Below are positions 43,600 to 46,506 of a stretch of 64,000 bases of DNA, piece by piece; the first letter of the stretch is position 1; each line of letters opens with the position of its first letter. This stretch comes from Streptantibioticus parmotrematis. Its GTDB lineage: Bacteria; Actinomycetota; Actinomycetes; Streptomycetales; Streptomycetaceae. The stretch covers positions 1-64,000 of the forward strand of contig NZ_JAINVZ010000001.1 in assembly GCF_019890615.1 (NCBI RefSeq), given 5' to 3'. Position numbers and translations under genes: made by a program. Under the pieces are notes generated by a model, which made no database searches, was not told the DNA's origin, and worked only from the letters and a program-made list of their open reading frames with translations.

Positions 43600-44054
43600 T
43601 AACGCAAAACGCTGTGTTCGTGTCTCTTTGTGATCGGATACGGGGCATCGGCTGTGGTTGGACGCCTGATCACGGCTCGGAGCGCCGCTGCGCCGACCGG
43701 GTGACGGCGGCGTGTCGCGCCTGGTCGGCGCGGTCGGATCGCGAGGGCCGCGTGCTCGCGTGAGGCGGGGGAGTTCCGGCGCGACCGGCGCGGACGGAGC
43801 GATCACGAACGCGATCACGAACGCGATCACGGCGCAACGCATCGGCGGTGCGTGACGGCGCGCTGGTCGGCGGCCCGGACCGGCGGCCTCGGGCGGCGCG
43901 TCGTCACGGATCGTAGGCACCCCCGTCGGACGCTCCGCCCCTCCGCCCCGCCCCTCCGTCACGGACGGTAGGTTCCGGCCTGCTCACGGGACCGAGCGCC
44001 ACGCGGGCCCGGCTTCCGGCGCCCACTCCCCAAGCCCGACCCCGCCGCCAGCCT
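43600..44054. other. Gene-free stretch with a 12-bp triplet repeat
   Basis: No gene is supported between the riboswitch promoter area and the next repeat array. GCGATCACGAAC is repeated in tandem at 43799-43810 and 43811-43822, with a partial third copy to 43834. A minus-strand frame across it encodes a VIAF-repeat hydrophobic stretch (MRCAVIAFVIAFVIA), but its downstream part is poor in coding character and overlaps the NlpC/P60 leader, so I do not call it. Confidence 0.5.
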
Positions 44055-44170
44055 CAGCCGTCCTGTGCCCTCAGCCGCCTTGCCCCCGACCGTCTCGCCT
44101 CCTCAGCCGCCTTGCCCCCAGCCGTCCCGTCGCCAACCGTTCTGCCCCAACCCGTCCTGCCGTCAGCCGT
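44055..44170. repeat. About eight 14-17-bp tandem units spanning a stop codon
   Basis: Units of CAGCCG(T/C)C(C/T)TG-type sequence repeat from 44055 to 44170: 44055-44071, 44072-44088, 44089-44103, 44104-44119, 44120-44134, 44135-44149, 44150-44163, and a final one into the gene. The stop codon of the minus-strand gene (44163-44165) lies inside the array, so its last residues (GDG) are encoded by a repeat unit. Confidence 0.8.
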
Positions 44171-44483
44171 CCCCCTCGCGCTCCGGCTCCTTCCGGGGGA
44201 TCGCGGGCAGCGACGTCCTGCGTTCGCCGTCCAGGACGCGCAGCGCCCGCACCAGCGTGTCCCGGTGCACCTCGGCCTCGCCGCGTTCGTGCATCAGGGC
44301 CAGCGCGTCTCTGAGCGAGGCGGCCTGGCCCACCAGCGCCTGGGCGGCGCGCAGTGCGGCGTAGGTGTTCGTGGCGCGGGCCGGGTTGGCGCGGCCCAGC
44401 AGGTCGGCGATGGCCAGGTAGCTGTCGATGAACTGGCCCTCGGCGCGGGTCAGCGCGGGCATCGGCGGCAGGTCGGGGATCAC
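44163..44483 (-). CDS. Hypothetical helical protein downstream of ClpP-like gene
   Basis: A 106-residue, mostly helical protein: MIPDLPPMPALTRAEGQFID, then SYLAIADLLGRANPARATNT, YAALRAAQALVGQAASLRDA and HERGEAEVHRDTLVRALRVL. I recognise no family. GTG 44483 is 8 nt beyond the ClpP-like stop (44491), so the two form an operon. A longer frame into the ClpP gene is unlikely. Possible adaptor or partner of the ClpP-like protein, by context only. Confidence 0.6.
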   Translation of the reverse strand: MIPDLPPMPALTRAEGQFIDSYLAIADLLGRANPARATNTYAALRAAQALVGQAASLRDALALMHERGEAEVHRDTLVRALRVLDGERRTSLPAIPRKEPEREGDG

Positions 44484-44490
44484 GTTGCGA

Positions 44491-45171
44491 TCACCGGTCC
44501 TCGGATGCTGCCGGGAAGGCCTCGCCGTTCTCGGCGACCCGGTCCACCAGCCCGTAAGCAACGGCCTGTTGGGCGTCGAGTACGGTCGTGTGCTCCAGGT
44601 CGGCGTGCACGCGGGAGCGGGGGCGTCCGGTGTACCGGGCGAGCAGTTCCTCGAACCGGTCACGCCTGCGCAGCAGTTCGGCGACGTGCACCTTCAGGTC
44701 GGACGCCCGCCCGTGCAACGGCTCGTCGTTCGTGGGCTGTTGGAGGGTGATGCGGGCGCCGGGCAGGACGAGGCGCTTGCCCGGCGTCCCGGCGGCCAGG
44801 AGCACGGCCGCCGCGGGGCCCGCCTGACCCAGGCAGACCGTGCGGACGTCGCAGGACAGATGGCGCATCGTGTCGTGGAGCGCGGTCAGGGCGGTGAACG
44901 AGCCGCCCGGCGAGTTGACGCACAGCTGGATCTCGCGGTCCGGCGCGTCGCGGTCGAGCCGCAGCAGCTGCGCGATCAGGACGTTCGCCGAGGCGTCGTC
45001 GAGGGACCCGCCGAGCATGACCACCCGACGCGCGAGCAGGTGGGCGTAGAGGCCGTCGTCCTGCGGCGGCAGCAGGCCAAGTCCGCTGCGCAGTCCGGGT
45101 GGTTCAGCCTGCTCCGGGCCTGCGGGGCCTCCTTGCTCCGGCCCCGCGGGGTCTCCGGTTCGTCCTGGCAT
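44491..45171 (-). CDS. ClpP homologue lacking the catalytic triad
   Basis: A 226-residue ClpP-fold protein with a Pro/Glu-rich N-terminus. The fold is clear (RRVVMLGGSLDDASANVLIA, QLCVNSPGGSFTALTALHDT, VCLGQAGPAAAVLLAAGTPG, AVAYGLVDRVAEN). Aligned without gaps to E. coli ClpP, the Ser of GQAASM is Pro119, the His of MIHQP is Gln144, and the Asp of ERDRF is Thr195. All three catalytic residues are thus absent, so it should be a non-proteolytic ClpR-like subunit that could enter mixed rings. ATG 45171 has GGAGGTG 6 nt upstream. It is divergent from a Phd-type antitoxin gene. Confidence 0.85.
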   Translation of the reverse strand: MPGRTGDPAGPEQGGPAGPEQAEPPGLRSGLGLLPPQDDGLYAHLLARRVVMLGGSLDDASANVLIAQLLRLDRDAPDREIQLCVNSPGGSFTALTALHDTMRHLSCDVRTVCLGQAGPAAAVLLAAGTPGKRLVLPGARITLQQPTNDEPLHGRASDLKVHVAELLRRRDRFEELLARYTGRPRSRVHADLEHTTVLDAQQAVAYGLVDRVAENGEAFPAASEDR

Positions 45172-45270
45172 GGGCGACACCTCCATGGCCTCGGGCGGGA
45201 CGCGGTCTCGCACCGGCGAGCGCGCGGCCCTGCGACAGCGGCTCTGTGTAAAAGGCAGCTCTGTAAAAAA

Positions 45271-45297
45271 TGTACAGGACGTACGGTCCGTTATGAT
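45271..45297 (+). promoter_or_regulatory. Promoter and dyad before the Phd-type gene
   Basis: A perfect -10 TATGAT (45292-45297) lies 7 nt before ATG 45305, so translation is probably leaderless. Just upstream is GGAC-N5-GTCC (45277-45289) within TGTACAGGACGTACGG, a likely site for antitoxin autoregulation. The AT-rich gap also serves the divergent ClpP-like gene. Confidence 0.6.
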
Positions 45298-45304
45298 GGT
45301 GAGC

Positions 45305-45586
45305 ATGGCCCACGAAGTCCCCGTGACACAAGCCCGCGCCGAGCTGGCCGAGCTGATCAACCGCGTCGTCTACGGCGGCGAGCGGGTCGTCGTCACCCGG
45401 CACGGCAAGCCGCTCGTCGCCCTGGTCTCCGCCGCCGACCTGCGGCGACTCGAAGAGGACGAACGGGCCGAGGGCGGCCGGATGATCAGTTCCGTCTCCG
45501 CCGTGGGACTCGGAGCGTCCGCTCCCGGCGAACGCCCCCGTTTCGGCATCGCCGCCCACCACGCCCCGCACTCCCCGGAGGCCTGA
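45305..45586 (+). CDS. Phd/YefM-family antitoxin without adjacent toxin
   Basis: A 93-residue protein with the Phd/YefM domain: [20 protein letters not shown], then [20 protein letters not shown] and [20 protein letters not shown]. The C-terminal 30 residues are Gly/Pro/His-rich. Antitoxins of this family normally precede a RelE or Doc toxin, but the next gene is ureA 299 bp away on the same strand, so it stands alone. It may act as a free-standing DNA-binding regulator or buffer a toxin elsewhere. It is divergent from the ClpP-like gene. Confidence 0.82.
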
Positions 45587-45639
45587 ATCCCGCGGTCCGT
45601 CACCGGGAAGAGCCTTTCGCACGCCGCGCCGACGGAGGC

Positions 45640-45677
45640 TTAACGCCCGCGAAACCGACCGGACGCGAGTGCGTAAT
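45640..45677 (+). promoter_or_regulatory. GlnR box upstream of the urease cluster
   Basis: Four 5-mers are spaced by 6 bp, as in GlnR boxes (gTnAC-N6-GaAAc repeated): TTAAC (45640-45644), GAAAC (45651-45655), GACGC (45662-45666) and GTAAT (45673-45677). The first pair is a near-consensus site; the second is weaker. GlnR activates or represses nitrogen genes including urease in streptomycetes, so the position 208 bp before ureA is meaningful. The remainder of the gap 45678-45884 holds no recognisable gene. Confidence 0.72.
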
Positions 45678-45884
45678 CACCCTGCAAAAACCTGGGAACC
45701 AGCAGGTCAAGCGGGGCTCGGCCGGGCGTACCGTGCATGGTGCAGTCATCCGGACACCCGGTGTGCGCACCCCTCACGCGCCGGCTCCCGACGCCCGACC
45801 GTGGCGGGCGGGCCGTGGCCGATGACCCATGGCCCGCGAGCGGCACCGGGCAGGACCGAGCAGGGACGACGTGAGGTGGTACGC

Positions 45885-46187
45885 GTGCGACTGACCCCGC
45901 ATGAACAGGAGCGTCTGCTGATCCACGTGGCGGCGGACGTGGCGCGCAGACGTCTCGACCGCGGTGTACGGCTCAACCACCCCGAGGCGGTCGCGCTCAT
46001 CACCACGCACGTCCTCGAAGGCGCCCGGGACGGCCGTACCGTCGCGGAGTTGATGTCCTCCGGCCGCAAGGTGCTCACCCGTGACGAGGTCATGGAGGGC
46101 ATCCCGGAGATGCTGTCCGACGTCCAGGTGGAGGCGACCTTCCCGGACGGCACCAAGCTGGTCACCGTCCACGACCCGATCGGCTGA
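45885..46187 (+). CDS. ureA: Urease gamma subunit
   Basis: A 100-residue Ure[61 protein letters not shown] and [18 protein letters not shown], full length and colinear with the family. GTG 45885 is used; GAGGTGGT sits just upstream. It starts the ureABCFGD series. Confidence 0.96.
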
Positions 46188-46194
46188 ACCGGCG

Positions 46195-46506
46195 ATGATT
46201 CCGGGAGAGATCCTCCACGCCGACGAGCCGGTGGTCCTCAACGAAGGACGTCCCGTCGTCAGGCTCACGGTGCTCAACGCCGCGGACCGGCCGGTGCAGG
46301 TCGGCTCGCACTACCACTTCGCCGAGGCCAACCCGGGGCTGGAGTTCGACCGGGAGGCCGCCCGGGGCCTGCGGCTGTCGGTCGCCGCCGGCACCGCCGT
46401 GCGGTTCGAACCGGGGCTGCCGGTCGAGGTCGAGCTCGTGCCGATAGCGGGCGAGCGCGTGGTCGCCGGACTGCGTGGCGAGACCTGCGGGCCCCTCGAC
46501 ACCTGA
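46195..46506 (+). CDS. ureB: Urease beta subunit
   Basis: A 103-residue Ure[21 protein letters not shown], then [20 protein letters not shown] (family hallmark), [20 protein letters not shown] and [16 protein letters not shown]. It begins 7 bp after ureA. The stop lies in a perfect tandem duplication. Confidence 0.96.

Follow-up and report, generated by a model that had tools for sequence, protein, structure and literature searches.

A solitary antitoxin of the Phd/YefM type is probably the dedicated regulator of an accessory operon that encodes a ClpP-like protein and a small helical protein, and no longer half of a toxin pair; this reading draws on gene order and on the distribution of an operator in related genomes. 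As judged by comparison, the three genes form a conserved trio, an inverted-repeat box between them is coupled both to Phd and to the ClpP operon, and the catalytic triad of the ClpP-like protein has been lost repeatedly under constraint. Taken whole, the proposal that Phd regulates an accessory ClpP-helical operon whose ClpP is non-cutting and which is subject to feedback from Clp is, in our judgment, evenly poised between right and wrong. If true, it would add a case of an antitoxin that has become a stand-alone regulator in protein quality control.

Organization of the Locus

The window, i.e., the whole stretch of DNA that was analyzed, comprises 64,000 nucleotides of Streptantibioticus parmotrematis (contig NZ_JAINVZ010000001.1, positions 1 to 64,000 of the forward strand), and positions are counted from its first letter. 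The features of the locus are:

44163-44483, minus strand: helical-protein gene, second in the ClpP operon; 106 aa, GTG start at 44483
44491-45171, minus strand: ClpP-like gene; 226 aa, ATG start at 45171; Pfam CLP_protease, E 8e-52
45178-45184, minus strand: ribosome-binding site GGAGGTG of the ClpP-like gene, read directly from the sequence
45262-45269, no strand: conserved flank TGTAAAAA on the ClpP side of the operator, from the locus comparison
45270-45286, no strand: operator ATGTAC-AGGAC-GTACGG (consensus ATGTAC-AGGAC-GTACAT)
45292-45297, plus strand: probable -10 element TATGAT, read from the sequence, of a putative phd promoter
45305-45586, plus strand: Phd/YefM-type gene; 93 aa; Pfam PhdYefM, E 1.9e-14; NCBIfam TIGR01552, E 1.1e-16

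The original prediction, a ClpP-like gene and a helical partner divergent from a solitary Phd, describes the window well: all three genes are there, the ClpP stop and the GTG of the helical gene are 7 bp apart, and both genes of this operon diverge from phd, which is followed by urease gamma and then urease beta. A ClpP start at the end of the long reading frame (45360) was rejected: this frame crosses the intergenic region, and 45171 is the likelier start. The ClpP-like protein scores 176 bits against PF00574 and belongs to the ClpP fold family; Phd scores 53.6 bits against PF02604, with a cut-off of 29.8. Rfam finds no RNA element over 43600-46300.

ClpP is matched three times in the genome, by a tandem pair on another contig and by the window copy. 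Two PhdYefM genes were found in it, the window copy and one followed by a YoeB toxin gene; this YefM-YoeB-like pair lies on contig 83 (L196:1267-2012) and makes a useful control for the solitary one. The helical protein has no Pfam or NCBIfam family over cut-off, and a sequence-profile search of the PDB gave no relative, the best hit being a designed protein at E 0.1. A structure model from three sequences has three helices at low confidence (pLDDT 67.9), with a best PDB match at E 0.52.

Conservation of the Trio

Of 394 Streptomycetaceae genomes sampled, 249 have the helical gene and 235 have Phd (threshold E 1e-12); some first-look candidates were scored per genome, and not every absence of either gene is certain, although five Phd-negative genomes rescored in full were still negative. 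The two genes occur together in 230 genomes, bearing out the co-occurrence that the original prediction presupposed. Some ClpP match is present in all 394 genomes, so the presence of the trio-type ClpP was decided by position. Where the positions of both genes were listed, every helical gene (101 of 101) sits next to ClpP and on its strand, and 90 of 98 phd genes diverge from ClpP at a distance of at most 1.2 kb; the other eight listed phd genes also lie on the strand opposite to ClpP, 1.2 to 132 kb off. Because the same gene order recurs across the family, the arrangement in the window is beyond chance.

Farther afield, a class-wide sample of 394 genomes has the helical gene in 37, five of them outside Streptomycetaceae. 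All three trio genes are present in L115, from outside the family; L112-L114, from another family, and L116, a weak match also from outside Streptomycetaceae, have no ClpP and no Phd within the 10 kb read. Plasmid unnamed2 of Streptomyces sp. KN37 carries genes annotated as Phd/YefM family antitoxin, Clp protease proteolytic subunit and hypothetical protein; three genes separate ClpP from Phd there, and the box stands just before ClpP.

The trio also comes apart. Of 97 loci with both Phd and the helical gene, in a sample enriched for exceptions, 15 have a broken ClpP or none, and ClpP remnants are seen in L105, L107, L109, L157 and L187; at L106, the helical gene is 0.5 kb from the contig end, and the missing ClpP proves nothing. 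The helical gene is found with neither ClpP nor Phd nearby in L079, and an exact box precedes Phd in L158, which has neither ClpP nor the helical gene. Since the helical gene occurs away from ClpP and Phd (L079, L112-L114), its product probably has a use of its own.

An Operator Tied to the ClpP Operon

The ClpP-Phd intergenic region contains a 6-5-6 inverted repeat, ATGTAC-AGGAC-GTACAT. Its window version, ATGTACAGGACGTACGG, lies 18 bp before phd, has two changes from the consensus in the second half-site, and is the only consensus match at up to two mismatches in the 7.4 Mb genome. A wider regulon was considered and rejected: the 12 other matches in this genome all have three mismatches, vs. 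eight for a reversed-pattern control.

The exact core of the box, AYGTACAGGAYGTAC, is present in 227 of the 394 Streptomycetaceae genomes and follows Phd closely: it is found in 219 of 235 Phd-positive vs. 8 of 159 Phd-negative genomes (Fisher 1e-78, ignoring relatedness), and in none of the 19 that have the helical gene without Phd. The shared operator of the divergent module, part of the original prediction, is thereby supported. The 16 Phd-positive genomes that lack the exact core divide into 12 with a weaker box near Phd or ClpP and four with no box. The weaker boxes differ from the 15-bp core at 1-2 positions or from the 17-bp consensus at 2-4, and the weakest, in G358, may be chance; no box is present in G004, G012 and G033, the three genomes with the most different Phd, or in G059, where the operon has decayed. 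Of the extra exact boxes that were read elsewhere, one stands before a truncated ClpP (L157), one before the lone Phd of L158, and two serve second trios (L117 and L159); those of L160, L161, L163, L165 and L166 have no trio gene nearby and look like chance. The truncated ClpP, at L157:2676-2948 with the operator in front, is an extra copy, a full trio being present elsewhere in that genome.

Which gene the box accompanies was counted in 93 distinct loci with ClpP, taking boxes at up to one mismatch anywhere in the stretch read. With Phd at most 400 bp from ClpP (73 loci), the box is near both genes in 56, near ClpP only in 7, and absent in 10, some of which have a weaker box. With Phd more than 400 bp away (15 distinct loci), the box is near ClpP only in 13 and near Phd only in 2, both polyketide-cluster copies (L117 and L159); five more loci, in which the stretch read does not reach Phd, all have it near ClpP. 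The listed boxes that lie more than 100 bp from Phd, partly from the same loci, are 103-151 bp from the ClpP match in 8 of 8 cases; at L191 (G298), the distance between box and Phd is about 530 bp. The phd genes that have been carried off in L168, L170 and L173 have no box at up to four mismatches. In ClpP-less L162, L164 and L181, the box is found between the helical gene and Phd. It is the retention of the box by ClpP in 13 of 15 separated loci, along with the coupling of the core to Phd, that makes Phd a likely dedicated regulator of the operon.

The flank TGTAAAAA is conserved where Phd is adjacent and partly where it is separated: separated loci keep the core and part of this A-rich flank, and the former phd side has drifted. 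TATGAT is partly conserved where phd is adjacent, and is located 7 bp before the ATG; from this spacing, the phd transcript is probably leaderless or nearly so.

In L078, L169, L171, L172 and L174, CTAGTGATCA or a close variant is found just after the operator and appears to mark inserted sequence ahead of phd at these five loci. Genes for an IS4/5-type and a DDE transposase lie close by in L171, and the spot between operator and phd may be a preferred insertion site.

The core of the box resembles TGTACA, the reported YefM operator core, with R10 and R31 of E. coli YefM contacting DNA (PMC3303803). Arginines 11 and 32 of Phd are near these two residues by number, the sequences being unaligned.

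A Solitary Antitoxin and Its Tail

Phd orthologues share a near-invariant DNA-binding half and a conserved tail end of the FGIAA type. As side material, L192-L195, from other genera, are trio relatives in which the DNA-binding half of Phd is altered and the operator is altered or missing (L192 and L194 have no helical-gene match); they are natural material for tracing recognition rules.

A toxin gene next to Phd was found neither by eye in the gene lists of relatives' loci nor in the KN37 plasmid annotation, and a search of the own genome found none for the window Phd, the YoeB gene being the neighbor of the other PhdYefM gene; the claim of an antitoxin without a toxin holds throughout this material. 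Of the hallmarks of a type II toxin-antitoxin system, the window has the antitoxin domain and a palindrome at the antitoxin's own probable promoter, and it lacks a co-directional toxin. Could the ClpP-like or the helical protein itself be the toxin that Phd neutralizes? Such a classical pair would account for the family membership of Phd and the style of its operator, but we consider it very improbable: the genes are divergent rather than co-directional, the helical gene (L079) and Phd (L158) each exist alone, and loci that lost ClpP and kept Phd, or lost Phd and kept the helical gene, would be unlikely if a potent toxin were involved.

The C-terminal arm of an antitoxin binds its toxin, and the Phd tail may touch ClpP. 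An FG[IL] tail is found in 81 of the 82 loci whose ClpP is full-length and in 6 of the 15 others (Fisher 3e-8, uncorrected for relatedness); the sole exception with a full ClpP, L142, belongs to a five-member group in which the remaining four lack ClpP. For the stabilizing or sensing role suggested in the original prediction, this pattern is the one hint. This pattern is what one would expect if the tail bound the ClpP-like protein as an antitoxin tail binds a toxin, with ClpP acting as a co-repressor and the ratio being sensed (conditional cooperativity). We find this rather doubtful: on well-supported branches, there are only four independent pairs of tail change and ClpP loss, and the sign test is not significant, which makes the association a hint rather than a result; moreover, some ClpP-less loci decay as a whole, and the tail change may follow from general relaxation. 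The tail motif was accordingly set aside as proof of ClpP binding, as it is not significant once relatedness is taken into account.

Repeated Loss of the Catalytic Triad Under Constraint

The window ClpP has Pro, Gln and Thr in place of the catalytic Ser, His and Asp. Among 83 distinct ClpP sequences, 36 have the intact triad, 46 have lost it and 1 is unreadable at these positions; each of the triad residues has been swapped for several others; this set consists of the best-matching part of the listed sequences plus chosen exceptions and is no species survey (it includes two polyketide-cluster copies and one sequence from another family, and leaves out some further loci). The description of the ClpP as dead therefore holds for the window and for the majority of these relatives and fails for the 36 that keep the triad, so that a dead triad is something the module has arrived at repeatedly and does not define it. 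In a ClpP tree built with the triad columns omitted, there are eight changes between intact and lost, six of them forced by well-supported branches. Since housekeeping ClpPs have an intact triad, these changes are mostly read as losses.

Substitution rates suggest that the dead proteins are kept. By a simple counting method, and over pairs that are not independent, median dN/dS at dS 0.1-0.4 comes to 0.318 in 30 dead pairs, 0.308 in 37 live pairs and 0.361 in 18 mixed pairs, as compared to medians of 1.09-1.16 in neutral simulations. With every pair up to dS 1 included, dead ClpPs are somewhat looser than live ones (0.438 vs. 0.354); the window ClpP and its nearest relative give 0.33. From the like values of dead and live ClpPs, cutting looks dispensable while the body does not. 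The N-terminal loop motif LP.F.ER is present in 70 of 82 readable rows and wholly lost in the window ClpP and L004, the other ten exceptions being off by one or two residues; its loss in the window protein may hinder docking to an ATPase. Given that 36 of 83 keep the triad, not every member can be fitted to a purely non-cutting role. With a protease that turned non-cutting repeatedly within one group, natural variants allow catalysis to be set against the function of the body.

These data bear on a simpler explanation, in which the orphan Phd merely autoregulates and ClpP with its partner is a decaying accessory pair that shares the intergenic region by chance. Decay is certainly visible, in the broken or absent ClpP of 15 of 97 loci, the 46 of 83 lost triads, the five loci with ClpP remnants (L105, L107, L109, L157, L187) and the box that sits at Phd in L117 and L159. 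We nonetheless judge this explanation to be improbable: at like divergence, dead ClpPs are as constrained as live ones, the box is at ClpP in 13 of 15 separated loci, and the exact core is missing from all 19 genomes that have the helical gene without Phd.

Second Copies in Polyketide Clusters

Two loci, L117 (3000-10301) and L159 (1-3909), carry a Phd-box-thioesterase-ClpP-helical cassette beside polyketide synthase genes, with a phosphopantetheinyl transferase gene also in the L117 cluster. In both, the box is at Phd, and the thioesterase gene separates it from ClpP. The ClpP of these second trios is intact in the triad and falls, in the tree, beside the second of the tandem ClpPs of its own genome, which, by gene order, we take for ClpP2. 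Phd, the box and the helical gene have thus been kept with another kind of ClpP, which suggests that they functionally belong together, even though the box is at Phd.

The cluster copies raise the question of self-protection. The module could guard against, or monitor, natural products directed at ClpP, with the accessory ClpP soaking up the compound or replacing its target and Phd switching this ClpP on when Clp fails; intact-triad second trios in the polyketide clusters of two genomes would fit, and so would clpP self-resistance genes, which are known in or near biosynthetic clusters (PMC13386464; PMC12607617). Only two such copies were seen, however, and the common copy is located beside urease genes; a repressor degraded by Clp would, moreover, accumulate under ClpP inhibition, not vanish. 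We regard self-protection as a distinctly unlikely function of the module.

A Possible Mechanism

The reading that we prefer, Phd as a dedicated regulator, can be extended into a mechanism, the parts of which differ in strength. Phd would no longer serve a toxin and would act as a transcriptional regulator, most likely a repressor, of the ClpP-helical operon by binding the ATGTAC-N5-GTACAT box, a site that overlaps what are probably the core promoters in both directions. The ClpP-like protein would be retained for its body rather than for proteolysis: most likely, it would take a place in mixed ClpP rings without cutting, and the helical protein would serve it as a partner or adaptor. That the ClpP-like protein is such a ClpR-like ring subunit, partnered by the helical protein, we hold to be plausible, a little short of even.

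Phd-type proteins are normally protease substrates, and a feedback loop would be the likely logic of the module on that ground. At high Clp capacity, Phd would be removed and the brake subunit turned on; at low Clp capacity, Phd would build up and the brake subunit would be turned off. Feedback of this kind, whether via Phd turnover or via tail binding, is a tentative part of the scheme and rather unlikely in our estimate. We infer binding of Phd to the box, repression, turnover of Phd by Clp, ring assembly and braking alike. As a precedent, RelB2, an antitoxin of S. cattleya, is reported to be shorter-lived in E. coli with several ClpP-ClpX pairs (PMC4989188).

The boldest form of the argument is that the antitoxin swapped its toxin for a protease-shaped partner. 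Phd would repress the operon and dock its tail on the ClpP-like protein; the dead ClpP and the helical protein would form a Clp brake or sensor, so that Clp capacity would be read by an antitoxin-type switch; and polyketide clusters would have acquired the same cassette with a live ClpP of the housekeeping type. We offer this version as speculation, with the chances clearly against it.

Comparison With Known Systems

Streptomycetes mostly encode three or five ClpPs, according to a study of S. lividans (PMC9765437); three or five ClpP matches per genome were common in the family survey (uncounted). From such gene numbers per genome, the window-type gene is probably the counterpart of S. lividans ClpP5, which, like the window ClpP, is a lone extra ClpP beside ClpP1P2 (and ClpP3P4). 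ClpP5 is described there as monocistronic (PMC9765437), whereas the window ClpP shares an operon with the helical gene. In the open-licence Streptomyces literature, the accessible passages on ClpP5 mention no helical partner, Phd neighbor, operator or dead triad, and no described role for the fifth ClpP was found. Among the papers listed from the same literature, titles and opening lines of abstracts gave nothing on this locus, although other work may exist, and no paper was found on SCO1237-SCO1240, which we presume to be the locus names for this region. The fifth Streptomyces ClpP, or its like, here gains a partner, a candidate regulator and a quickly testable operator.

ClpR of cyanobacteria and plastids has the ClpP fold without the catalytic residues and is kept by selection. 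Window-type ClpPs resemble it in that they, too, lack the triad under purifying selection (dN/dS 0.318 vs. about 1.1 under neutrality). They differ from ClpR in that loss has been repeated inside one group with many intact members; their assembly into rings is putative.

With YefM-YoeB and Phd-Doc, the module shares the Phd/YefM DNA-binding domain, an operator of the TGTACA type and a conserved C-terminal arm; unlike in these systems, no toxin gene was found for the window Phd, and the operator is tied to a divergent ClpP operon. PopR and ClgR, which regulate S. lividans clpP genes and are reported to be degraded in dependence on ClpP1 and ClpP2 (PMC9765437), offer a precedent: Phd, similarly, is a candidate clpP regulator that may itself be a Clp substrate. 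By contrast, PopR and ClgR are described in the same text as activators (PMC9765437), whereas Phd is derived from an antitoxin and is probably a repressor.
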